From Acidobacteriota bacterium (GTDB lineage: Bacteria > Acidobacteriota > Thermoanaerobaculia > Gp7-AA8 > JAHWKK01), in NCBI GenBank assembly GCA_019347945.1, contig JAHWKK010000005.1, positions 62,001 to 126,000 on the forward strand: a stretch of DNA of 64,000 nt, read 5' to 3'. Below, piece after piece: positions 5,415 to 61,928 of this stretch (its first letter is position 1; each line of letters begins with the position of its first letter). The translations under genes were made by a program, and so were the position numbers. Below the pieces are notes generated by a model. That model was not told the origin of the DNA and ran no database searches. It worked only from the letters and a program-made list of their open reading frames with translations.

Positions 5415-5465
5415 CTCGTCCCTCCAGGTTTGCTTTCCCGGATCATATCGGATGGAAGCAGGATT

Positions 5466-5514
5466 CAGGAGTCAGGAGTCAGGAGTCAGGAGTGAGGAGT
5501 CAGGAGTCAGGGTC
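5466..5514. repeat. Heptamer tract (CAGGAGT)n
   Basis: Seven consecutive units with period 7, mostly CAGGAGT, including one GAGGAGT and a last divergent unit. It lies 52 bp upstream of the M49-like gene. One of a family of heptanucleotide tracts in this window. Confidence 0.85.
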
Positions 5515-5585
5515 GAGCGCAGAGAGGAAGCATGACAGGAACGTGCCGGAGATGACGATTCGACATTCCCTCGTTTTCCCCCACT

Positions 5586-5625
5586 CCTCATCCTGAGCCG
5601 CCGAAGGACGGCGAAGGATCTGGCG
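5586..5625. repeat. Dispersed palindromic element R1
   Basis: Core TCCTGAGCCGCCGAAGGACG followed by GCGAAGGATCTGG. Close copies occur at 33331-33370, 33428-33462 (inverted), 44235-44275 and 61829-61860. All are intergenic. The rest of the 5415-5718 gap holds short CACTCTT-type repeats next to the HAD gene stop and nothing coding. Confidence 0.75.
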
Positions 5626-5718
5626 GCAGGCTCGTGAATATAGGGTGAGAGCATGCAGAGGTTTACCTTCGCGTTGTCTCTTCTTTCACTCTTCAACCCT
5701 TCACTCTTCACTCCTGCC

Positions 5719-11661: not shown

Positions 11662-11724
11662 CTCCTGGATCCTGCCTCCTGGCTCCTGATTCCTGACTCC
11701 TGCTCCCTGATCCCTGCTCCCTGA
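11662..11724. repeat. Heptamer tract (NTCCTGN)n
   Basis: Nine units in perfect 7-bp register (CTCCTGG, ATCCTGC, CTCCTGA, TCCCTGA and so on). It ends 21 bases before the glucokinase start codon, close to where a promoter or leader would lie. Confidence 0.85.
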
Positions 11725-11745
11725 TCCTCTGATACTCTCGCTGCC

Positions 11746-21004: not shown

Positions 21005-21665
21005 CGATTCTGTCGCCCGCTGAAGCGGGCTCCACATTTTGAGGTGCCGCGCTCCTGTCCCCCGGCTGAAGCCGGGGGCTAAGACCTGGCGCCGCCTTTC
21101 GGCGGCTTGGCGGCTTCGTCGATTCAGCGAGTTGGAGACGATCTGCCCGATGCGTCAGGTTCTGTCACCCGCGCTCCGGCCGAAAACGTGCAGATCAGCC
21201 CGCGCCCCGGTCGAACGGCCGACCGGCCATCTTCGAGGTTGAATCTCCGCAGGAACGTTCTCTCCGATGAGCCCGCGTCAGCGGGCGAAAGACCTTAGCC
21301 CCCGGCTTCAGCCGGGGGATAGTTGTGCTCCATTAAGAAATGTCGAGCCCGCTTCAGCGGGCGAAAGAACCTCGACCCCCTCAAAGACGTTCAGTCTCGC
21401 GAGATCTCCACTTTGCATCAGCCCGCTCTGCGGGCGAAAGACCTTAGCCCCCGGCTTCAGCCGGGGGATAGTTGTGCTCCACTAAGAAATGTCGAGCCCG
21501 CTTCAGCGGGCGTCAGCAGGTCGACCGCTCGAAGAGGCTCATCTCGCGAGATCTCCACTTCGGTCAGCCCGCACCGCGGGCGAAAGACCTTAGCCCCCGG
21601 CTTCAGCCGGGGGATAGTTGTGCTCCATTAAGAAATGTCGAGCCCGCTTCAGCGGGCGACAGATT
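21005..21665. repeat. REP-like hairpin cluster A with triple tandem unit
   Basis: It begins with three hairpins: GCCCGC-TGAA-GCGGGC (21015-21030), CCCCCGGC-TGAA-GCCGGGGG (21059-21078) and GCCGCC-TTTC-GGCGGC (21091-21106). CTGTC or CTGGC flanks or just overlaps the 5' end of each stem. The same elements then recur in reverse orientation as a 146-151 bp direct repeat (21270-21420, 21421-21565, partial 21566-21665). The whole 20846-21679 gap lacks a supported gene. Confidence 0.85.
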
Positions 21666-25706: not shown

Positions 25707-25739
25707 GATGACGACCTCCGGACCAAGTTTATCCCTGGA

Positions 25740-25797
25740 GAAGAGTGAAGAGTGAAGGGGGAAAAGAAGAGTGAAGAGTGAAGAGTGAAGAGTGAAA
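25740..25797. repeat. Heptamer tract (GAAGAGT)n
   Basis: Two units, a short interruption, then four more units in 7-bp register, 34 bp upstream of the PQQ-repeat gene. Confidence 0.8.
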
Positions 25798-25883
25798 GAA
25801 ATGCGGGACGCCGGGCGAGGGACGAGCTTGCGCGATGCGACATTCCACCGGGAGGGGTTGGGCGATTCACGATCCCACACCCA

Positions 25884-26034
25884 GATTCTTCGCCCGCGCT
25901 GCGCCGGGCTCAGAATGACGAGTGCTTCACTCTGATCCCTGATCCCTGACCCCTGATCCCTTCTTTTCACTCTTCACTCTTCACTCTTCACTCTTCTTTT
26001 CACTCTTCACTCTTCTCTCTTCACTCTTCTTTTC
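25884..26034. repeat. R1-like palindrome and heptamer tracts
   Basis: An R1-variant (AGATTCTTCGCCCGC then GCCGGGCTCAGAATGACGAG) at 25884-25922 is followed by TGATCCC units (25933-25960) and CACTCTT units to 26034. They fill most of the 25707-26072 gap; no gene is seen there. Confidence 0.75.
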
Positions 26035-26072
26035 CGACCCGGGTTCGCCTCTTGAATACCGGAGGTGATCCC

Positions 26073-31207: not shown

Positions 31208-33156
31208 CCAGACTCGCAATTCCGCTCCTTCTCGTCGCACAGATCGCATCGGGAGCCGAGATGGAGCGGACAATCGAGCCGCAGGCTCCCGGTCCCAACC
31301 GCATCGAGGTCGACGCGCCGCTGCTCGAAGACGCTCAACCTCTTCGCTACTCCGGAAATCGCTTCATCAGCGGGCTCGGAGACCTTCGGATCAGGGACCG
31401 CAACGGCGCGGAGATCCCGTACATCCTCGTCGCCCCGCGCTCGGCTCCCACATGGTTGCGAGCGAGCGTCCTCCCGATTCGTGCGACGAAGAAGACGAGC
31501 GGCTTCGAAGCAGACCTCGGTGCCCCCCATTCAGTCGACGCGATTCGCCTTCCCGATCTTCGCGCACCTTTTCTCAAACGCTTCCGTCTCGAAGGAAGCG
31601 GCGACCGGCAGCGCTGGACGCAACTGGTCTCCGAGGGGACGCTGTTCGACCTCCCAGCCGAATCGATGGTGCTGCGGGAGGCCGAGTTCGAGCCGGGTGA
31701 GTACCGGTATCTCAGACTCACCTGGGATGACCGCACCAGCGGCGTCATGCCCCTCCCCGATCGCGTCGAGGTCCGCCGCGCGTCGATCGGGAATCAGACC
31801 CATTCGCTCCTTCCGGCAGAAGTGACTCGACGCACCAGCGAGCCCGGCGCCAGCAGGTTCCACATCCGGCTGCCCGGCTCGAATCTTCCGCTGCGTGCAA
31901 TCCGGATCCGAACCCGTGAAGAGACTCTCTCCCGACGTGCATCCGTCTTCGAGTCCCGTCTCATCGGCGCCGAAGCGACGCCCGTGTCGATTGGAAGCGC
32001 CACACTCCGGAAGATTCAGCAGGACGAGGGAACCGCGGAGGGCACGCGGATTCCGGTCGAGCCACCCATCGGACCGGATCTCGAGCTCGTCGTCGACGAC
32101 GGTGACAATCCGCCTCTCGATCTGGAGGCGGTCGAGCTCGAGCTTCCCCCGCTCCCGTGGATCTATTTCGAGGCTCCGTCGGCCGAGCCGCTCATCGCGG
32201 TCTGGGGACGTCGCTCGCTCGAGGCTCCGGAGTACGATCTCGCCGCGCGCAGGGAGAATCTCGACCTCGACCGCGTACCCGTCGCCTCCTGGGGACCCGC
32301 CATGGAATCGGACGCTGGCGATGCGTCCCCGCCTCGGCCGGTCACCTTCGACGGAGCACCGGTCGAGAGGTCGCAATTCCGCTGGATGAAGCCGGTTCCT
32401 CCCTCGGAACCGGGTCTGACATCGCTCCTCATCGATGAAGACGTTCAGGCGCACTCTCGCGATCTCGCCGACGTGCGGATTGTCGGAGACGACGACCGGC
32501 AGATCCCCTATCTCGTCGAGCGTCGGGACGAACCGATGGAGATCCCGCTACGTCTCGGCCCGAGAACCGACGAGGGTGAGGGATGGTCGGGCTACACGCT
32601 CGAGCTCCCATGGCCGACGACGCCGCCGGGTACGAAGCTCGTTGTGCGGACCGGCGAGCGGGTGTTCGACCGGAACGTACGGATCGTCACGGCCGGCGAC
32701 GGTTCCCGGCTCGACGGAAGGACGCTCGACGAGACCCGGTGGGCCGGCACCGTGCCGGAGCGGGAGGCGCCGCCTCTCGTCCTTCAACCCTATCTGCACG
32801 GCTCGGACGTGGTCCGCCTTCTGATCGACGAAGGGGACAACGCGCCGCTCGAGCTGAGCGGTGTCAGCCTCCTGATCCCATCCGTGCGATTCCGGTTCAT
32901 CCGCGGGGTCGAGCATGATGACCTCGAGCTTCTCTACGGCGCGCCTTCGCTCAGGAAGCCCCGTTACGACATCGGACTGATCGCACCGAGGCTCTTCGGC
33001 GAGCCGGCCAACGAGATCGCGCCCGGCGAGGAAGTCGCGCTGCGCGAAGATGCCTCGGAAGCCTCCGCGCTCCGCTGGTTCTGGATCGTGATCGTCGTCG
33101 CCACCGTCGCGCTCCTGCTCGTCATCGCGCGTCTTCTGAAGCCGGGCCATCTGTAG
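31204..33156 (+). CDS. DUF3999 family exported membrane protein
   Basis: 650 residues. A signal peptide (AIPLLLVAQIASGA, about 5-18), a long beta-rich periplasmic region with discoidin-like segments (GEYRYLRLTWDD) and one C-terminal membrane helix (about 622-642). It follows DUF2339 with a TTGA overlap, TTG being the only start that keeps the signal peptide. DUF2339 and DUF3999 proteins are usually encoded together and presumably form a complex. Function unknown. Confidence 0.85.
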   Translation: MTRLAIPLLLVAQIASGAEMERTIEPQAPGPNRIEVDAPLLEDAQPLRYSGNRFISGLGDLRIRDRNGAEIPYILVAPRSAPTWLRASVLPIRATKKTSGFEADLGAPHSVDAIRLPDLRAPFLKRFRLEGSGDRQRWTQLVSEGTLFDLPAESMVLREAEFEPGEYRYLRLTWDDRTSGVMPLPDRVEVRRASIGNQTHSLLPAEVTRRTSEPGASRFHIRLPGSNLPLRAIRIRTREETLSRRASVFESRLIGAEATPVSIGSATLRKIQQDEGTAEGTRIPVEPPIGPDLELVVDDGDNPPLDLEAVELELPPLPWIYFEAPSAEPLIAVWGRRSLEAPEYDLAARRENLDLDRVPVASWGPAMESDAGDASPPRPVTFDGAPVERSQFRWMKPVPPSEPGLTSLLIDEDVQAHSRDLADVRIVGDDDRQIPYLVERRDEPMEIPLRLGPRTDEGEGWSGYTLELPWPTTPPGTKLVVRTGERVFDRNVRIVTAGDGSRLDGRTLDETRWAGTVPEREAPPLVLQPYLHGSDVVRLLIDEGDNAPLELSGVSLLIPSVRFRFIRGVEHDDLELLYGAPSLRKPRYDIGLIAPRLFGEPANEIAPGEEVALREDASEASALRWFWIVIVVATVALLLVIARLLKPGHL

Positions 33157-33160
33157 AGAT

Positions 33161-33314
33161 CAGGATTCAGGGATCAGGATTCGGGGATCAGGATTCAGGA
33201 GCCAGGGATCAGGGATCAGGAGCCAGGGATCAGGGATCAGGGATCAGGAGCCAGGGATCAGGGATCAGGGATCAGGAGCCAGGGATCAGGGATCAGGGAT
33301 CAGGAGCCAGGGTG
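33161..33314. repeat. 22-unit heptamer array with 28-bp superperiod
   Basis: Twenty-two consecutive 7-bp units in perfect register, starting 5 bases after the DUF3999 stop. The units are CAGGATT, CAGGGAT and CAGGAGC. From about 33196 the order settles into CAGGAGC followed by two or three CAGGGAT, giving a 28-bp higher-order repeat. It is the longest heptamer array in the window. Confidence 0.93.
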
Positions 33315-33330
33315 GAAGAGTGAAGCACTC

Positions 33331-33652
33331 GTCATCCTGAGCCGCCGAAGGACGGCGAAGGATCTGGGGGCCGGTCGTGAATTGACGTGATGCCCTTTCC
33401 GCGTCGAATCAGTCCCGAGCCTCCGACCAGATCCTTCGCCGTCATTCGGCGGCTCAGGATGAAACGACCACGAAATTGCTGGACTTCGACCCTCTTGCAG
33501 CGCTTCGCTTGGACTGATGTCCCAACCTGCGAGGTCCCTCGCTTGCCCGCCCGACCTCCCGCTCGGGATGACGTCGGTTTGAGTACGTGAGTGCGCTTGT
33601 TTCTGCACTCACGGGTTTCATTTCCGCTTCACCGGCGCAACGCGCCGGTCTA
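33331..33652. repeat. R1 palindrome plus long repeat R3 (copy 1)
   Basis: An R1 copy (33331-33370) precedes a segment of about 225 bp, 33428-33652, that is the reverse complement, with scattered differences, of 61632-61862. Shared landmarks include TGAAACGACCACGAAATT, CTCGCTTGCCCGCCCGACC and CATTTCCGCTTCACCGGCGC. Nothing coding is seen between 33157 and 33830. Confidence 0.75.
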
Positions 33653-33808
33653 CTCGCTTCTAGATGACGAGTGTTGAAATCGCGCGAGAACAAGAGACCA
33701 GGCATTCGTGCAGAATGTCCAGCATCACCGGGAGGGCGAGGCGCCTGCCGGTGAAATGTTGGATCGCCCAAGCTCGTCCCGCGTCCCACGCCCCGCGTCC
33801 CGCATTTC

Positions 33809-33839
33809 TTCACTCTTCACTCTTCACTCTTCACTCTTC
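33809..33839. repeat. Heptamer tract (CACTCTT)n overlapping a stop codon
   Basis: About four CACTCTT units that run into the 3' end of the next gene. The stop codon of the lipoprotein gene (33831-33833 on the minus strand) is part of a unit. Confidence 0.8.
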
Positions 33840-34925
33840 CTCCTCCGGGCGCCACCGAACGCGATAGACCGGCTCGGGCCGGAGCTCTTCCATCAGCGCA
33901 TCCCGGATCTCCTCGCTCTGCGGAACGGAGTGAACCCAACGAGGCTGCTCGAGAAACGCGGCGAGCGGGTCCTCTTCCGATTCGTCCTCGTCCCTCGCCT
34001 CGTCCTCCTCGGCCATGCGCAGAAACACAGTGAGCGGGTCGGGGGTGATCCACCGACCCTCGAGCGCGGCGAACGCTTCCCACAGACCAACCCGAGGAAC
34101 GACGAACGAACCGTCATCCTGCTCTTCGACTCCCTCGTGGAGCAGAACGTCCCCGTCGACACTGATCCGGAGTGACGCCGGCAATGGATCGTAGACGAGC
34201 TGAGAGACGCGCTGGAGCGAGAGAGATTCGTCCTCGCTCACGCTGAAGAGCCCAATCAGCTCGTCCAGCTCGATCTCGAACTCGTCGAGCAGAATCCTTT
34301 CGGTCTCGGTCAGGATGGCGTCGATTGCGAACATCGCCGAGACGACGTCGCGCGTCCTGTGCGGATGCGCTTCGATGTATTCGTAAATTCTCGCAACCGC
34401 GCCGTAATAACGGCTCACGCTCTGAAGCCAGACGGTCATCCTCCGTTCCAGCGCCCGCTGCTGCTCGACGGACGCCCCGTTCGAGGTACCGGGATAGATC
34501 GAGATCTCGCGCCAGTCCTCACCGCCCGTCACGAAGACGGAGATCGATGTATCGCCGAAAAAGAGACCGATCTCCCGCGGATCGAGTACCGCCGAGTGCT
34601 GCACCTTCGTCAGCACGCCTTCGGTGCGCGTCCACGTTCTCTGCTCGCGGTAGGGGTTCACGGCGGCAAACCTCCGGCTCCACTGATCAGTCTCGTCGGC
34701 AAGTGCGTTCGCGAGCGCCGTCGTCGACGCGGCAGCCGCGGGCCTCGTCTCCGGATCGACCGGCTCGATCTCGACCGTGACGCTCACCCGCGCCTCCTCG
34801 TCCGAGAGCATCTCGATATCGATCGACTCGGTGAGCGGATCGGTAACGCAGGCATTCAATCCGATAAGGAGGATCAGTGCGAAGAATTGCAGCGGGTGGC
34901 GGAAGCGGATTCGAGATGTTTTCAT
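33831..34925 (-). CDS. Hypothetical lipoprotein
   Basis: 364 residues, no known family recognised. The lipobox LIGLNAC (Cys about 26) predicts a lipoprotein. The mature part starts with VTDPLTESIDIEMLSDEEARVSVTVEIEPV, as in some surface lipoproteins, and has a strongly acidic C-terminus ending in four Glu. ATG 34925 was chosen over an upstream GTG-type extension because it gives a proper signal peptide. The final codons and stop merge with a heptamer tract, so the C-terminus may have been set by repeat growth. Confidence 0.7.
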   Translation of the reverse strand: MKTSRIRFRHPLQFFALILLIGLNACVTDPLTESIDIEMLSDEEARVSVTVEIEPVDPETRPAAAASTTALANALADETDQWSRRFAAVNPYREQRTWTRTEGVLTKVQHSAVLDPREIGLFFGDTSISVFVTGGEDWREISIYPGTSNGASVEQQRALERRMTVWLQSVSRYYGAVARIYEYIEAHPHRTRDVVSAMFAIDAILTETERILLDEFEIELDELIGLFSVSEDESLSLQRVSQLVYDPLPASLRISVDGDVLLHEGVEEQDDGSFVVPRVGLWEAFAALEGRWITPDPLTVFLRMAEEDEARDEDESEEDPLAAFLEQPRWVHSVPQSEEIRDALMEELRPEPVYRVRWRPEEEE

Positions 34926-38249: not shown

Positions 38250-38356
38250 TCGAGCGTCGCGATGGGGGTCGTCGCGCAAGCTCGCGACAGGGCTGAGAAA
38301 CCTACGACGATTCCTACGTGCCTCAGCGTCGGGATCCTGCGATCCCGTAACTGCGC

Positions 38357-38384
38357 TGATCCCTGATCCCTGATCCCTAAGCCC
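38357..38384. repeat. Heptamer tract abutting the ompW stop
   Basis: TGATCCC three times and TAAGCCC, in 7-bp register, ending on the last base of the ompW-like stop codon (minus strand). Confidence 0.8.
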
Positions 38385-39034
38385 TAGAACCTGATCGAAA
38401 TACCCCCGGAGAGGAGCAAGGGATTGATGTTGATCTCGTCGGTCGTCGTACCGCTGCCGAAGATCACATTCGCGGACGATTCGAGCGGAACGTACTTCGC
38501 GTCGATGTTGAGCCCGAAGGTATTCCCGAACCAGTAATTGAGTCCGATGTTCGCGGCGAACCCGGCATCCTCGTCGATCGCGATCCGGTCGAAACCCGCC
38601 TGGTCGACATTGTCGCCCTCGACGTCGTCCACCAGTACGTACGCGACGCCGCCGCCGATGTAGAGATCGAACGGTCCGTCCGGATTGAAGTGATACTGCA
38701 GCACTGCGGTCACCGGGATGACCTCGACGTCGGTCGTATTGATGAAGGTTCCCGACTGATCATTGGTCTCCGTGGTGATGACATCGGGCTCGATGAGCGA
38801 GAGTCCGATCTCGGTCGAGAAGCGGGAACCGAGATAGAAATTGACCGCAACTCCATAACCGGTGTCGTCCTCGAGCTCGAGTCGGACATCGTTTCGATCG
38901 GACGAGCCCTCGATTTCCTCGTGGGTGTCGGTGTCGAGCCAGGTGAAGCGGGGGATCAGCTCGACCTGGCCGTAGGCTGGGATCGCCGAGGCGATCAGGC
39001 CGAGAACCATCAACGGAATCAATGTGCGTTTCAT
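38384..39034 (-). CDS. ompW: OmpW-like outer-membrane porin
   Basis: 216 residues with a signal peptide (cleavage after AYG, about 22) and eight predicted amphipathic strands ending in the outer-membrane terminal Phe (GGISIRF). OmpW features: VNFYLGSRFSTEIGLSLIEP, PVTAVLQYHFNPDGPFDLYIGGGVAY and NIGLNYWFGNTFGLNIDAKYVPL. OmpW forms a narrow 8-stranded barrel for small hydrophobic molecules. GGAGG lies 9 bases before the ATG. The divergent promoter region shared with the metzincin gene contains a CRP-type palindrome; OmpW genes elsewhere respond to oxygen and carbon state. Confidence 0.88.
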   Translation of the reverse strand: MKRTLIPLMVLGLIASAIPAYGQVELIPRFTWLDTDTHEEIEGSSDRNDVRLELEDDTGYGVAVNFYLGSRFSTEIGLSLIEPDVITTETNDQSGTFINTTDVEVIPVTAVLQYHFNPDGPFDLYIGGGVAYVLVDDVEGDNVDQAGFDRIAIDEDAGFAANIGLNYWFGNTFGLNIDAKYVPLESSANVIFGSGTTTDEININPLLLSGGISIRF

Positions 39035-44085: not shown

Positions 44086-44164
44086 CTGACCGCCCCTCCG
44101 GGGCTGGAGGCATGGCCGTGAGTCAACATGAACAGCGTCTCGAGGGTTGATTCACGATCCCCCG

Positions 44165-44409
44165 CCCAGATTCTTCGCCCGTGCTTTCGGCCGGGCTCAG
44201 AATGACGTGGCGCTGCTCTCGCCGCATACCAACACTCGTCATCCTGAGCCGCCGGAGGACGGCGAAGGATCTGGGAGAAGGTCGTGAAGCAACGGGACCA
44301 TCGTCTCGAGCGTTGACTCACGATCCCCCCCGGATTCTTCACCCGTGCTGCGCCGGGCTCAGAATGACTCGGGTCATAACTGGCAACCGGCAACCGGCAA
44401 CTGACAACC
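44165..44409. repeat. R1-type palindromes and a GGCAACC heptamer tract
   Basis: Three R1-related elements (44168-44206, 44235-44275, 44333-44368) and then GGCAACC units in 7-bp register (44382-44409). The 43953-44472 gap has no supported gene; the promoter of the permease operon should lie at its end. Confidence 0.75.
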
Positions 44410-46265: not shown

Positions 46266-46676
46266 GGTCTGTCGCCCGCTGAAGCGGGCTCCATTGAGGG
46301 GCCCCGCGTTTCTGTCCCCCGGCTGAAGCCGGGGGCTAGGTTCTGTCGCCGCCTTCGGCGGCTTAGTCGCTTCGTTCGAATTCAGCGAGTCCGAGGCGCT
46401 CCCTCCGTCGTGTTTGATTCTGTCGCCCGCTGAAGCGCGGGCTTGTAAATAATTCATCCTGGAAGCTTTGAGTTCGCGTGATGTCCGGCTTTCAGCCCGC
46501 TTCAGCGGGCGGCAGAACGCCGAACATTCGAAAAAAGCGGCAAGACTCGCGGGCTCACCATCTCCGGCAGCCCGCGCCAGCGGGCGACAGACCTTAGCCC
46601 CCGGCTTCAGCCGGGGGACAGAGTCGGATTTCTATAAATGTCGAGCCCGCTTCAGCGAGCGACAGAATCGAACAGC
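46266..46676. repeat. REP-like hairpin cluster B
   Basis: The same three-hairpin order as cluster A (GCCCGC-TGAA-GCGGGC, CCCCCGGC-TGAA-GCCGGGGG, GCCGCC-TTC-GGCGGC, each preceded by CTGTC), followed by inverted copies ending near 46676. It fills the gap between the permease and glycosyltransferase operons. Confidence 0.85.
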
Positions 46677-47997: not shown

Positions 47998-49082
47998 GCC
48001 GCGATCCGCGACTCATCGTCGACGGACGGCCGCTGGTCGGGAACCGGACCGGCATCGGCGTCCACGTCGCCGAGGTCCTGGCGCGGCTCGGGTTCGATCC
48101 GGCGCCGGTCGTCGCGGCACACGCGCCGATCGAGAATCTCTCGCGCCTCGAAGGCGTCGAGCTCCGCGTCGACCGATCACTCAACGGAATCACCTGGCAG
48201 CAGTTCCGCCTCCCCTCGGTCGCCAGGCGAGTCGGAGCCGGCGTCCTCTGGGGCCCTCACGGTACGATTCCATGGACGATCCGGATACCCGCCGTCGTCA
48301 CGATTCACGACCTGACCTCGATCATGATGCCGCGCCTTCACTCGCTCAGGACAATTTTCTCGTTCAATCTCTTCATCGGACGAAGCCTGTCGATCGCGAC
48401 GAAGATCGTCGCGGTGTCGCGGCATACCGCTGAAATGGTCGAGCGGGGCTTCGATGTCCCTCGCGCAAAGATCGAGATCGTTCCGAACGCAGCGTCGTCC
48501 TTCTTTTCTCCGGGACCGGCTGACGAGCTCCCCGTGGGGCTCGACCCCGGCTCCTACATCCTCTTCGCCGGAACGGTCGAGCCGCGGAAGGGTGTCGCCG
48601 ATCTGCTCGACGCCTGGGAAGCGCTGAGCCGGCCACGTCCCCGTCTGGTCGTCGCCGGTGGACGCGGCTGGAAGCTCGATGCGCTCGAGCAGCGGATCGA
48701 ATCGCTGGGGCCCGAGGTCGTTCGGACAGGACGCGTCACGGACGCGGCGCTCCGAAGCCTCTACAGAGGCGCGCTGGTCACAGTGTATCCCTCCCACTAC
48801 GAAGGATTCGGGATCCCGGTGCTCGAGGCGATGCAGTGCGGCTCCCCGGTCATCACGACGACTGGCGGCGCTCTCCCCGACGTTGCCGGGGAGGCCGCGA
48901 TCCTCGTCGAGCCCGGCCGGCCGGCGGAGCTGCTGAGCGCGATCCGTCGAGTCCTCGAGAGCCAGGATCTTCGGCATGATCTCGCCGCACGCGGACAGGA
49001 GCGATCCCGCCATTTTTCCTGGGACGCGAGCGCCGAATCCTACGCGACGATCTTTCGGGAAGCCGCACGGAGCAGAGGCTGA
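47994..49082 (+). CDS. Glycosyltransferase family 4 (second of three)
   Basis: 362 residues, GT-B fold. Acceptor start LIVDGRPLVGNRTGIGVHVAEVL; donor site with FAGTVEPRKGVADLLDAWEA and YEGFGIPVLEAMQCGSPVIT. The ATG overlaps the previous stop by 4 bases and its own stop overlaps the next ATG (TGATG), so the three genes are tightly coupled. It differs enough from its neighbours to add a different linkage. Likely mannosyl- or glucosyl-type, not determinable here. Confidence 0.9.
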   Translation: MSRDPRLIVDGRPLVGNRTGIGVHVAEVLARLGFDPAPVVAAHAPIENLSRLEGVELRVDRSLNGITWQQFRLPSVARRVGAGVLWGPHGTIPWTIRIPAVVTIHDLTSIMMPRLHSLRTIFSFNLFIGRSLSIATKIVAVSRHTAEMVERGFDVPRAKIEIVPNAASSFFSPGPADELPVGLDPGSYILFAGTVEPRKGVADLLDAWEALSRPRPRLVVAGGRGWKLDALEQRIESLGPEVVRTGRVTDAALRSLYRGALVTVYPSHYEGFGIPVLEAMQCGSPVITTTGGALPDVAGEAAILVEPGRPAELLSAIRRVLESQDLRHDLAARGQERSRHFSWDASAESYATIFREAARSRG

Positions 49083-50128
49083 TGGCGCGGATCGCGATCG
49101 ACTGCCGCAAGATCGGCGACTTCGGGATCGGGGTCTGGATCAGATCGCTCCTCACGGGACTCGTGGAGATCGATTCTCCTCACCAGTTCCTCGTCCTCGG
49201 TCCCCATCATCTGAAAGACGACGTTCCCGGAGATTCGCGATTCGTCCACGTCCCGCTGGAGAGTCCTCACTATTCATTCCGTGAGCTCGTCGTCGTCGGG
49301 AGAACCGCGGAGAAGCACGGGGCCGGTCTCCTCCACTCGCCTCACTACGTCGTGCCGATGACACGTCTTCCCGTCGTCACGACGGTGCACGACCTGATTC
49401 ATCTGCGCGTTCCCGGCCTCTCCATCCACGCCCGGACGTACGCTCGAGTCATGTTGCGCCGTGCGGTCCTCTCCTCGGAGAGGGTCCTCGTCCCGACCGA
49501 AGCCGTTGCGAACGAGATCGTCCGGCGCTGGCCGAAAGCGAGGAAACCGATCGTCACGGGATGCGGAATCGATCCCCTTCTCGAACGGACGGAAGCGGGT
49601 GAGCGGATTCCGGGTCTCCAGCCCCGCCGATACTTCCTCTATGTCGGCAACGACAAGCCCCACAAGAACGTACAGCGGCTGGTGGAGGCGTTCCGCCCGA
49701 TTCACCGGCGCCATCCCGAGACTCTCCTCGTACTTGTCGGCGGCGACTTCAGGAGATTCGATGATCCCGGAATCGTTCATCCCGGTTTCGTCACACCCGG
49801 AACGCTTCGAACTCTCTACGAACAGGCGCTCGCGGTCGTTCAGCCTTCGCTGTTCGAAGGATTCGGACTTCCCGTTCTCGAGGCGATGTGGTTCGGGACG
49901 CCGGTCGCGATCGCCTCGATTCCTCCTCTTCTCGAGGTAGCCGGCGACGCAGGGCTGACGTTCGATCCCGAATCGGTCCGATCGATCGAGGACACCCTCG
50001 CGCAGCTCGTGAACTCTTCCGATCTGCGGCGCCACATGGCAGAGGCGTCGCGAAGCCAGGCCGCTCGCTACACCAGAGCTGGCCAGGCGTCGAAGGTCTC
50101 GGAAGCGTGGGGCGAGGTGCTTTCATAG
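49082..50128 (+). CDS. Glycosyltransferase family 4 (third of three)
   Basis: 348 residues, GT-B fold. N-terminus RIAIDCRKIGDFGIGVWIRSLL; histidine-bearing acceptor site TTVHDLIHLRVPG. Donor site with YVGNDKPHKNVQRLVEAF and FEGFGLPVLEAMWFGTPVA. Last of the coupled set; the REP-like cluster around tnpA begins 23 bp after its stop. Confidence 0.9.
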   Translation: MARIAIDCRKIGDFGIGVWIRSLLTGLVEIDSPHQFLVLGPHHLKDDVPGDSRFVHVPLESPHYSFRELVVVGRTAEKHGAGLLHSPHYVVPMTRLPVVTTVHDLIHLRVPGLSIHARTYARVMLRRAVLSSERVLVPTEAVANEIVRRWPKARKPIVTGCGIDPLLERTEAGERIPGLQPRRYFLYVGNDKPHKNVQRLVEAFRPIHRRHPETLLVLVGGDFRRFDDPGIVHPGFVTPGTLRTLYEQALAVVQPSLFEGFGLPVLEAMWFGTPVAIASIPPLLEVAGDAGLTFDPESVRSIEDTLAQLVNSSDLRRHMAEASRSQAARYTRAGQASKVSEAWGEVLS

Positions 50129-50150: not shown

Positions 50151-50536
50151 ATTCTGTCGCCCGCTGAAGCGGGCTCGACGTTTGAGGGTGCCACGCGTTC
50201 CTGTCCCCCGGCTGAAGCCGGGGGCTATGATCTGGCGCCGCCTTTCGGCGGCTCCGTCAGCTGCGTCCGATTCGGAGCGCGTCGGAAACGATCAGCCGGT
50301 GTGTTCGATTCTGTCGCCCGCGCCGCGCTCGCGAAACCGCCCGATGAACGAGAGTCTTTGCTGGCCCGCGGTCCGCGGCGACAGAACGTCGACCGCTCTC
50401 AAAGATCTTGAATCTCGCGAAGATCTCCACTTCGCATCAGCCCGCTCCGCGGGCGAGAGAACTTAGACCCCGGCTTCAGCCAGGGGTTGGGAGAGCCGCC
50501 GCAGAGAATGTCGAGCCCGCTTCAGCGGGCGACAGA
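50151..50536. repeat. REP-like cluster C, left flank of tnpA
   Basis: It opens with the three hairpins in the same order and spacing as clusters A and B, and ends with inverted GCCCGC-TTCA-GCGGGC at about 50517-50531. The first 100-130 bp are a near-identical direct repeat of 51064-51205 on the other side of the transposase gene. The 50537-50618 stretch holds the presumed tnpA promoter; no clear boxes were identified. Confidence 0.85.
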
Positions 50537-50618
50537 TTCTCGCTATTTACGTGGATCGCGATCCGAGGTAATGTCTGGAGTGTCCACAGCACCCGCGCGA
50601 TTTGTCCGGCGACAAATC

Positions 50619-51053
50619 ATGAAACATAGTTACAGCGCGATCTTTCATCACATCGTTTTTTCGACACGACAACGCCAAGCTGCGCTCGACTCCGAGCTCG
50701 AGCTACGCCTCTTCCCCTATCTCGGGGGCATCTGCCGGGGGCTCGACGCAAGGTTACTCGCCGTCAATGGAGGATGCGACCACCTTCATTTGCTCGTTCT
50801 TCTACCGGCAACCCTGGCGACGGCAGAGTTCGTCGGGAAGCTGAAGGGAAACTCCTCGAGATGGCTCCGCGGCATTCGCGGAAGTCTGTGGCCCGGCTGG
50901 CAGCGCGGATTCGCTGCGTTCAGTGTCAGCCGGTCTTGCATTGCGAATGTCGAACGCTATATTCGGCAGCAAAAGGAACATCACAAGAAGAAGACGTTCG
51001 AAGAAGAGTTGATCGCTCTGCTCGAGGCACACGGCGTCAAATTCGACTCATAA
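50619..51053 (+). CDS. tnpA: IS200-like Y1 (HUH) transposase TnpA
   Basis: 144 residues, the length of single-domain IS200/IS605 TnpA. The HUH motif is His55-Leu-His57 in GGCDHLHLLV, and the catalytic Tyr is Tyr114 in VERYIRQQKEHH with Gln118 downstream. The N-terminus SAIFHHIVFSTRQRQ and LKGNSSRWLRG also fit the family. These enzymes cut and join single-stranded DNA at hairpins. The gene is intact and lies between direct copies of a REP-like hairpin element. No tnpB and no accessory gene. Longer upstream in-frame sequence is repeat, so ATG 50619 is the start. Confidence 0.92.
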   Translation: MKHSYSAIFHHIVFSTRQRQAALDSELELRLFPYLGGICRGLDARLLAVNGGCDHLHLLVLLPATLATAEFVGKLKGNSSRWLRGIRGSLWPGWQRGFAAFSVSRSCIANVERYIRQQKEHHKKKTFEEELIALLEAHGVKFDS

Positions 51054-51063
51054 TTCCTGGAAT

Positions 51064-51205
51064 CGGATTCTGTCGCCCGCTGAAGCGGGCTTACATTTGA
51101 GGGTGCCACGCGTTCCTGTCCTCCGGCTGAAGCCGGGGGCTATGGTCTGGCGCCGCCTTTCGGCGGCTCCGTCAGCTGCGTCAATTCGAGCGCGCCTGAC
51201 GATCA
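51064..51205. repeat. REP-like element D, right flank of tnpA
   Basis: Direct copy of the start of cluster C (GCCCGC-TGAA-GCGGGC, then TCCGGC-TGAA-GCCGGGGG, then GCCGCC-TTTC-GGCGGC), 11 bases after the tnpA stop. The remainder up to ruvB (51206-51319) shows nothing recognisable. Confidence 0.85.
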
Positions 51206-51319: not shown

Positions 51320-52351
51320 TCAGAAAAGTCGTGACTGGCGGGAAGCGCGGCTCTCCGGATAGCCGAGATGGCGCACGGCGTCGCCCGAAACGACGCGCCC
51401 TCGCGGACCCCGGTGGAGGAAGCCGATCTGGATCAGATAGGGCTCGTAGAGGTCCTCGATCGTTCCCTTGTCCTCGGAGATGGACGACGCCAGCGCGCTC
51501 AGGCCGACCGGTCCGCCGTCGAATCGTTCGATGATCGTGAGCAGAATCTTCCGGTCTATCTCGTCGAGCCCGAAATCGTCGACTTCGAGCATCTGGAGCG
51601 CCTCGCGCGTCCCCTCCAGATCGATCGCTCCCTCGTGACGCACCTCGGCGAAGTCCCTCACGCGGCGCAACAGGCGGTTCGCGATTCTCGGAGTGCCCCG
51701 GGAACGTTTCGCGATCTCGTTTGCTGCTTCGCGCGTGATCGAGATTCCGAGAATCTCGGCGGAGCGCTCGACGATGATCCTGAGTGAGTCCATGTCGTAG
51801 AAGTCGAGTCGATGAACGATTCCGAACCGGGAGCGAAGCGGAGCGCTCAGCAGCCCGGCGCGGGTCGTCGCTCCGATCAGCGTGAACGGCGGGATCTCGA
51901 CGCTGATCGTTCGGGCCGCGGGGCCCTGACCGATCACCAGATCGAGCTTGAAGTCTTCCATCGCCGAGTAGAGGATCTCCTCGACCTGAGGTTGAAGCCG
52001 GTGGATCTCGTCGATGAAGAGAGCGTCGTTGGGCTCGAGGTTGGTGAGGATCGCGGCGAGATCTCCGGAGCGCTCGATCACGGGCCCCGAAGTGGCGCGG
52101 ATCCCGGCGTTCATCTCGTTCGCGATGATGTGAGCCAATGTCGTTTTTCCGAGCCCGGGCGGTCCGAAAAGAAGGACGTGATCGATCGGCTCCCCCCGGC
52201 GTCGCGCCGCTTCCACCGAGATCTGGAGATTTTCCTTCACCTTTTTCTGACCGATGTACTCGGAGAGCTGCCGCGGGCGAAGCGACAGCTCGACGGTCAG
52301 GTCGTCGGGCTCCGGGATGGATGAAAGGATTCTGGATTCGTTATCAGTCAT
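51320..52351 (-). CDS. ruvB: Holliday junction helicase motor RuvB
   Basis: 343-residue AAA+ ATPase that drives branch migration with RuvA. Walker [15 protein letters not shown], Walker [10 protein letters not shown], sensor 1 [19 protein letters not shown] with the arginine finger, then a small lid domain and a winged-helix C-terminus ([11 protein letters not shown]). ATG 52351 overlaps the end of the kinase gene by 8 bases; the frame could begin 10 codons earlier but the family length fits 343. It is last in the pil transcript and far from ruvA. Confidence 0.97.
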
Positions 52352-54059
52352 CGGATGTCGCCGTGGCTGGTGCCACCTCATCGGCCGACTGTGCCGATGT
52401 CTGTTCGCAGGGGAGCCGGATCGTGACGGTGGTTCCCGAGGCCTCTGCCGGCTCGACGACGATCGAACCGCCGTGCTCCTGAACGATGCGATACGAGATG
52501 GCCATTCCTAGGCCGGTTCCCGAAGCCCGGGAGGTGTGAAACGGACTGAACATTCGGTCTCGCTGCTCCTGTGACATGCCGACTCCCTCATCGCTGAATG
52601 CGACGCAGTAGCGGGTTTGCTCCCGCCAGCCGCGGACCAGAAGCCGCCCGCCCGAGGGCATTGCCTGAATCGCGTTTCGCGCGAGATTCCAGAAGACCTG
52701 CCGGATCTGATTCGGATCCGCTTCGACCGTGGCGAGCGGGCCTTCGATTCTCAGCTCGATGCGGTGACTCTCGCTCAACTCGGGCGAGTTTTTCAGGAGA
52801 TCGAGGGTTTCTTCCAACCCGCTTGCGATATCGAATGATTCGAAAGTCGGCTGCATCGGACGGACGAACTTGAGAAAGTCACCGATTGTCCGGTCGAGAC
52901 GCTCGGATTCCTGCAGAACGATCGAGAGAAGCCGTCGCTCCGACTCGCTCAGATTCGATCCCTTGCCGAGAACCTGGGCCGATCCCGCGATGGCGGCGAG
53001 CGGATTGCGGATCTCGTGGGCGATGCCTGCTGACAGCTCGCCGACCGCGGCCATTCTGTCGCGAAGCTGCAGTTGCCGCTCGAGCCTTTTTCGTTCGGTC
53101 AGATCCTGAAAGATGATCGTGATTCCGAAGGGCTCTCCGTCGAGTGTGGCCAATGGCGTGGCTGCGTATCCGACGGTACGCGTCGATCCATCGGAGTGTT
53201 TGATCTCGGTCTCACCCTTGCTCAGCCGCGTGTTGCGGAGCTCGTGAGAGGCGATTTTCCATTCGAGATCGTTGAAGAACCCGATCTCGACGATCGACTT
53301 TCCGAGGATGTATCGCTCGTCGAGGCCGAAGATGTGACAGGCCGAATAGTTGACGAACGTGATCACCCCCTCCCGATCGAGGGTGAGCAGGCCCGAGGTG
53401 ATCGAAGCGATCACGTTCTCGTTGAGCGCACGAAGTCGCGCGAGGTCGGCGCGTCTCGCATTGAGCTCGGCGGCAGCGCGCCTCAGCTGCTCGGACAGCC
53501 ACGAGGTGAGAAGGGCGGCTGCGTAAAAGCCGCCGAAGACGGTCGCGAGGTTGACGTACATCCGGGCTGGAGACCATTGAACGGGGGTGAAGAGGCCGGC
53601 GCTTGGAAGCGGGAGAAAGCCGAGATACATCAGATCGACCAGCCCCCCATAGAAGATGACGCTGGCCGATGCGACGAGCAGCGCTCCCCGTCTGAAGAGC
53701 ATCGTTGCAGCAGTGACGATCGAGATCAGATAGAGGAAGGAAAACGGAGAGTCGAGTCCGCCGGTGAAATAGACGATCATCGTCTCGAGAACCAGATCCC
53801 CGAGCATCTGCAGCAGGATGTGCAGTTCGCGGGAGCGGACGACTCGGGCGAGCAACACCCAGACGATCGTGAGGGCGTAGGTGAGCCCCGTCACGAAGTA
53901 GAGGTAGTTGATCGGAAGGATGATGTCGGTCGTCGACTGAATGATCAGAGCCGCCAGCAGTAGAGAGCTGATGGCGACGATCCGGATGACGAGAAGCATC
54001 CGGACGTCCTGGCGGTCGATGACCCCACCCACCTGCTCGCGACCCCTGTCGAGGGGCAC
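52344..54059 (-). CDS. PAS sensor histidine kinase, PilS-like
   Basis: 571 residues. Six membrane helices (about 20-190, PilS-like in pattern), a PAS domain (about 215-335), a dimerisation domain with phospho-acceptor His in [20 protein letters not shown], and an ATPase with [22 protein letters not shown] and GTGLGMAI. The likely target is a PilR-type activator of pilin expression, but none follows: the next gene is ruvB. GTG start with GGAG 7 bases upstream, 14 bases after pilC. The membrane and PAS layout plus context suggest pilus control. Confidence 0.85.
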
Positions 54060-61383: not shown

Positions 61384-61423
61384 ATCGTTTCGAAGAACTA
61401 TTCTATGCGGCCCACGAGTGGAA

Positions 61424-61451
61424 GAAGAGTGAAGAGTGAAGAGTGAAGAGT
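61424..61451. repeat. Heptamer tract (GAAGAGT)n
   Basis: Four GAAGAGT units in register, 41 bp upstream of the hutU start. It matches the unit upstream of the PQQ-repeat gene at 25.7 kb. Confidence 0.8.
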
Positions 61452-61519
61452 GAAAGAAGAGAAGCCGCGAAGGTAACCACTCGATACACTCACCCTTCGT
61501 TCACGAGCCTGCCGCCAGA

Positions 61520-61862
61520 TTCTTCGCCCGCGCTCCGCCGGGCTCAGAATGACGAGTGTTGTGTTTGTGCGACGTGACGATCATGCACGAATGTTTGTTC
61601 TCGCGAAAACCCTCCCCTCGTCATCCTGAGCAATTGACCGGCGCGTTTGCGACGGTGAAGCGGAAATGACCCTGTGGAGTGCAGAAACAACCGCACTCGC
61701 ATACTCAAACCGACGTCGTCCCGAGCGGGCGGTCGGGCGGGCAAGCGAGGGACCTTGTAGGGTCGGACATCAGGCCAAGCGAAGCGCTGCAAAAGGTCGA
61801 AGTCCACGCAATTTCGTGGTCGTTTCATTAGAGCCGCCGAAGGACGGCGAAGGATCTGGGCG
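61520..61862. repeat. R1-type palindrome and long repeat R3 (copy 2)
   Basis: An R1 variant lies at 61520-61558. From 61632 to 61862 the sequence is a near copy, in opposite orientation, of 33428-33652, and it also ends in an R1 palindrome. A short CCTCCAA heptamer run follows (61885-61904). The 61384-61928 gap has no supported gene. Confidence 0.75.
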
Positions 61863-61928
61863 CGGGATCGTGAGCCAACGTTGCACCTCCAACCTCCAAC
61901 CGAACACCGCGTTGGATAGAATTCGCCC

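Follow-up and report, generated by a model that had tools for sequence, protein, structure and literature searches.

The gene tnpA (50619-51053, forward strand), located in the 64,000-nt stretch of an Acidobacteriota genome analysed here and hereafter called the window (contig JAHWKK010000005.1, positions 62,001 to 126,000), quite probably belongs to a REPtron-like unit in which, by analogy with known systems, a single-domain HUH/Y1 transposase of TnpAY1 subclass 1.2 would act on a three-hairpin single-stranded (ss) DNA repeat including the Rfam family Acido-Lenti-1 (RF01687) as its hairpins B and C. It is most likely a REP/RAYT-like system on the class 1 (IS200) branch, being a RAYT neither by protein class nor by tag.

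The intact single-domain IS200-like TnpA of the original prediction was confirmed: the product has 144 aa, the codons of His55, His57 and Tyr114 occupy 50781-50783, 50787-50789 and 50958-50960, respectively, and matches were found to Pfam Y1_Tnp (E = 4.8e-20) and NCBIfam NF033573 (IS200/IS605; 61.8 bits, over the cut-off). At the protein level it is thus a member of the IS200/IS605 family with the Y1_Tnp fold, the HUH motif and the tyrosine. Its motifs are DHLH, WQ (W94-Q95) and YIRQQKEHH (Y114, Q118, H121-H122); H11, H55, H57, K76, W94, Y114, Q118, H121, H122 and E130 are invariant in the alignment of 33 relatives, all of which have YxxxQxxHH in common. The fold predicted for the protein, with a mean pLDDT of 84.5, comes nearest to the TnpA proteins of ISHp608 and ISDra2 (Foldseek E about 3e-9), which are also the best PDB sequence matches, with the RAYT structure 4er8 being a weaker fold match (2.8e-5 vs 3e-9). 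The enzyme had been proposed to lack the RAYT C-terminal extension, which has to be qualified, as a short C-terminal helix (residues 127-137) is predicted beyond the tyrosine helix.

Subclass 1.2 was described by Quentin et al. (2018), mainly from Cyanobacteria and Bacteroidetes, as proteins of about 148 aa with a short C-terminal segment, YxxxQxxHH around the catalytic tyrosine, WQ and DHxH, without IS properties and with the entry "no" for REP in Table 1 (PMC6006769). The window TnpA shares the DHxH, WQ and YIRQQKEHH motifs, the approximate size and the short C-terminal segment, and so fits the subclass by sequence; it differs from the description in being bracketed by repeats, and genes of the subclass are present in 83 of the 396 genomes of the phylum that were searched. 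Several near-identical Y1 transposases of class 2-like type, some of them truncated, are also found in the same genome (L005, L006, L007 and L008; C7, C1 and C38), with NHYH, YVVLNP and a long C-terminal part, the three-hairpin element being absent within the flanks examined.

Each copy of the element, hereafter an arm, consists in the 5′–3′ direction of the tag CTGTC, hairpin A (GCCCGC-loop-GCGGGC), about 25 nt, hairpin B (CCCCCGGC-TGAA-GCCGGGGG), a spacer of CTA plus about 9 nt ending with CTGTC or CTGGC, and hairpin C. The distal upstream arm (50154-50252, forward) includes the tag (50154-50158), hairpin A (50159-50174), hairpin B (50205-50224), CTATGATCTGGC and hairpin C (50237-50252), and is supported by an RF01687 match (50205-50253, 40 bits) and by its DNA fold (z = -2.8). 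The proximal upstream arm (50437-50535, minus strand, inverted), which was recognized from the repeat family in the window and is absent from the RF01687 matches, has the GACAG tag at 50531-50535, hairpin A at 50515-50530, then hairpin B with mismatches and hairpin C further upstream (DNA fold z = -2.3). The downstream arm (51070-51168, forward) starts with CTGTC (51070-51074) followed by hairpins A, B and C, with an RF01687 match at 51120-51168 (contig 113120-113168) under the gathering score.

It was originally proposed that tnpA lies between direct copies of the element. The arms at 50154-50252 and 51070-51168 are indeed direct copies (97% over 90 nt), but the minus-strand arm is nearer to the gene, so that the immediate bracket is inverted and can be written C′B′A′-tnpA-ABC. 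The gene has, as RAYT genes do, two inverted flanking REPs that are abundant in the genome. Its neighbours are a glycosyltransferase gene upstream (49082-50128) and ruvB downstream (51320-52381, minus strand), and no tnpB was found among the flanking ORFs. A second tnpA, 85% identical and with similar surroundings, brings the number of subclass 1.2 copies in the genome to two. Several relatives (L169, L173, L176, L177) also have arms of the same architecture 3′ of ruvB, as does the window, with an RF01687 match there in genome G029 as well; this side of ruvB may be a recurrent site.

The same element was found without a transposase at the two other predicted places, each turning out to be a forward-reverse cluster. 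The first cluster (21010-21662) contains a forward arm at 21010-21107 and three reverse arms at about 21270-21367, 21418-21516 and 21564-21662, and the second (46269-46665) contains a forward arm at 46269-46363 and a reverse arm at about 46569-46665. Hairpins B and C score above the RF01687 gathering score at all three places of the window (3 matches), and the whole genome gives 76 matches, 29 of which are over the threshold.

The predicted CTGTC or CTGGC before the stems was found as well, and the pattern CTGNC-GCCCGC(N2-6)GCGGGCT, which picks up hairpins A plus some hairpins C, occurs 116 times in the 3.72-Mb genome (55 and 61 copies on the two strands), with no copies of the reversed control pattern. 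With this number of tagged hairpins and the forward-reverse clusters, the element has the many palindromic copies and opposite-orientation pairs of a REP, its intergenic status being taken from the window clusters. An alignment of 44 arms from this genome has an information content of about 2 bits for each tag site (most positions from -1 to -4), which falls to a near-random level of about 0.0-0.3 bits past about -12; conservation thus runs from the tag inward, giving the element a sharp 5′ end at the tag. Folded as DNA, individual arms are 2 to 4 standard deviations under shuffles. In several arms of this genome the TGTC of the tag is predicted to pair with a GACA located past hairpin A; as such a matching complement is absent in many other genomes, this pairing was not made part of the proposed model. 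A reading of the element as a transcription terminator was rejected, as the window copies have no T-run after the stems.

There are other repeats in the window. A palindromic repeat, ATTCTTCGCCCGCGCTGCGCCGGGCTCAGAATGAC (25866-25924, 44151-44209, 44315-44373 and 61500-61558; at least 41 genome matches), is another REP-like family, and a third short repeat, TCATCCTGAGCCGCCGAAGGACGGCGAAGGATCTGG (5582-5646, 33326-33390, 44233-44297 and 61831-61873), is of a similar form. Arrays of 7-nt units (AGGAGTC, GGGATCA and TCACTCT types) represent a heptamer repeat habit and are located at 5439-5540, 11665-11729, 25738-26062, 33141-33340, 33777-33872, 38356-38399 and 61422-61458.

Among the 396 genomes, 70 possess both RF01687 and a subclass 1.2 tnpA, 26 only RF01687, 13 only the gene and 287 neither (odds ratio 59, p = 4e-42), and the corresponding counts by genus are 46, 11, 4 and 149 (p = 5.5e-31); these p-values are overstated, related genomes being non-independent samples. 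RF01687 shows no association with class 2 tnpA in the same genomes (odds ratio 1.29, p = 0.29), and the association with subclass 1.2 persists in class 2-positive and class 2-negative genomes alike. This contrast within the same genomes is a more robust point than the p-values.

Elements without a tnpA homologue had been named beforehand as evidence against the pairing, and 26 of the 96 RF01687-positive genomes do lack an intact subclass 1.2 gene, which counts in part against the pairing. A broad profile search of these 26 genomes revealed other Y1 classes or fragments and no intact gene of the subclass. They can be read as reflecting mainly tnpA loss or assembly gaps: several are fragmented MAGs, while several others with 8 or more copies are nearly complete (G036, G249 and G305) and G156 is a single contig, so that for these tnpA loss with survival of the repeats must be assumed.

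RF01687 matches lie beside 17 of the 30 subclass 1.2 genes, compared with none of the six class 2 genes of the window's own genome. Many RF01687-free loci of the subclass have the same architecture with other stem sequences; the stems vary between genomes while the architecture is constant. A sequence-blind grammar (hairpin, 14-40 nt, hairpin followed by CTA, 6-16 nt, hairpin) found 51 arms in 38 subclass 1.2 loci (147 kb) with a shuffle expectation of 0.0, and none in 30 class 2 loci (102 kb; shuffles 0.4). Such an arm is present within 250 nt of tnpA at 25 of 37 subclass 1.2 loci, with none at the remaining 12, and 35 of the 38 strict arms within this distance point outward (p = 7e-8). The distance between bracket arm and gene is in many cases no more than a few tens of nt, and at 28 of 35 loci the left and right flanks resemble each other in inverted orientation. 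In all 14 both-sided loci there is one arm on each side of the gene, which does not interrupt an arm. Beyond this phylum, the bracket is clearly recognizable in Flavisolibacter, in one MAG each of Bacteroidales and Akkermansia and on a Persicobacter plasmid, although this set is small and some of its loci show no bracket; plasmid searches gave three subclass 1.2 loci outside the phylum, with a clear bracket only at the Persicobacter locus. Such flanks do not agree with the absence of REP- or IS-like flanks reported for subclass 1.2, which calls for a revision of its description and not of the membership based on sequence.

A bracket arm of genome G257 matches 47 times within that genome, and each of 15 relatives from the same family has 0-4 weaker matches; a bracket arm of G029 has 11 matches in its own genome with fewer and weaker ones elsewhere. 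Judging by these matches, this is a genome-specific repeat population apparently tied to the resident enzyme. When one bracket was compared with one distant copy per genome a clear match was obtained in two of nine cases, many genomes probably holding several tnpA types. The originally proposed pairing of a transposase with REP elements on an enzyme of IS200 size is supported by the specific co-occurrence, the inverted bracketing, the genome-specific family matching the bracket and the sharp 5′ end.

The comparison of empty sites in close relatives was made with two genomes of 95% identity, where none of the sites was cleanly empty. The element clusters occupy corresponding positions in the two genomes; what distinguishes them is the length of the arrays, internal duplication and mosaic changes, as evidence of change within local arrays and not of dispersal. 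For the window's own genome, the identity to the nearest relatives is only about 75% at ruvB, too low for an alignment of intergenic DNA. In the closely related pair G123 and G165 (L144-L163) the RF01687 copies are found in a few tandem or inverted arrays at matching places, which differ by whole-unit duplications, e.g. of 322 nt.

It is unlikely that the elements are REP-like palindromes moved by something else, with tnpA being an insertion sequence that prefers to insert among them. Insertion sequences targeting REPs are known (PMC1525189), and the 26 genomes with elements and no tnpA would agree with this; against it are the constant outward geometry near the gene across genomes with unrelated stems, the uninterrupted arms of the 14 both-sided loci and the lack of any repeat association with the class 2 Y1 genes.

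Still less probable is a genuine structured small RNA or cis-regulator, as which the element is understood in Rfam, with tnpA merely travelling along with it or being regulated by it. Acido-Lenti-1 is a predicted RNA of unknown function that is entered in Rfam as an sRNA, was scored as "probably RNA" by Weinberg et al. in 2010 (PMC2864571) and, according to a 2026 paper, may have a regulatory role near Tannerella proteases (PMC13298647); no link between RF01687 and a transposase was found in the literature searched. Against an RNA are the copies themselves, which number dozens per genome and occur in both orientations, in inverted pairs and in arrays, as well as the association limited to one transposase subclass. 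Stems maintained as RNA should tolerate G-U over A-C, whereas the internal stem interruptions, although small in number, comprise 24 G-T and 21 A-C (10 and 9 in the strict set), so that the selection looks like that on DNA. What the Rfam entry covers of the window element is hairpins B and C with the CTA spacer; these belong here to a longer DNA repeat that also comprises hairpin A and the 5′ tag.

A reading as an ordinary, autonomous insertion sequence of IS200 type that has subterminal hairpins, and whose distant copies would be decayed deletion derivatives, fits the class 1 fold and motif nearest to ISHp608 and ISDra2 and is nevertheless highly improbable, given two tnpA copies against more than 100 tagged hairpins, an inverted bracket where IS200/IS605 elements have no terminal inverted repeats (PMC2817692), forward-reverse clusters resembling REPIN/BIME order, and a subclass described as having no IS properties (PMC6006769).

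In the favoured reading, that of a REPtron-like unit, tnpA of subclass 1.2 is bracketed by outward-pointing inverted arms (tag TGYC, hairpin A, about 25 nt, hairpin B, CTA spacer, hairpin C), and non-autonomous copies of the repeat, in many cases inverted pairs and small arrays, are scattered over the genome. When the DNA becomes single-stranded, for example on the lagging-strand template, the hairpins would fold and, following the IS200/IS605 and TnpAREP precedents, be bound by TnpA. The 5′ tag may help to select the cleavage site, as suggested by the work on IS608 and TnpAREP (PMC8266576), and Tyr114 would then cleave and rejoin the ssDNA, so that copies could be excised, copied or rearranged. 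All of this, from cleavage and mobility to the choice of strand and the part of the tag as a guide, is inferred here by analogy. The Acido-Lenti-1 "RNA" is most likely hairpins B and C of this DNA repeat, which would be the substrate of the subclass 1.2 TnpA.

The unit resembles the RAYT/TnpAREP REPtrons (PMC2817692; class 2 in PMC6006769; PMC8266576) in having a Y1/HUH gene between two inverted palindromic repeats, which are dispersed through the genome, often in BIME-like clusters, carry a short tag 5′ of the stem and form a genome-specific family. It differs from them in the class 1 enzyme with YxxxQxxHH, where RAYTs have YxxxNP, in the repeat unit of three hairpins instead of one and in the tag, which is TGYC/CTGTC here, often TGCC or others in other genomes, and GT[AG]G in RAYT systems. 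The TnpA proteins of IS200/IS605 elements (ISHp608, ISDra2) are similar in the single-domain size, HUH-Y1 fold and YxxxQ motif, but the present system has a low tnpA copy number, no flanking tnpB seen, inverted three-hairpin brackets and many tnpA-free repeats. Short palindromes that carry CGTC or TGTC as a tag on one side, described by De Nocera in 2013 and reported to lack a dedicated transposase (PMC3733652), resemble the element in form; they have a single 8-9-bp stem starting with A/T pairs and not three hairpins.

On balance it is rather more probable than the contrary that Acido-Lenti-1 is not an RNA family but a set of ancient cross-phylum three-hairpin ssDNA repeats served by subclass 1.2 Y1 transposases, i.e. 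a second REP system that arose on the IS200 (class 1) branch independently of RAYTs. The system described here offers a probable identity for an orphan Rfam "ncRNA" still annotated as RNA and recently proposed to regulate nearby genes, provides substrates for a transposase subclass described as having none, and implies that the partnership between REPs and transposases is not limited to the RAYT branch.
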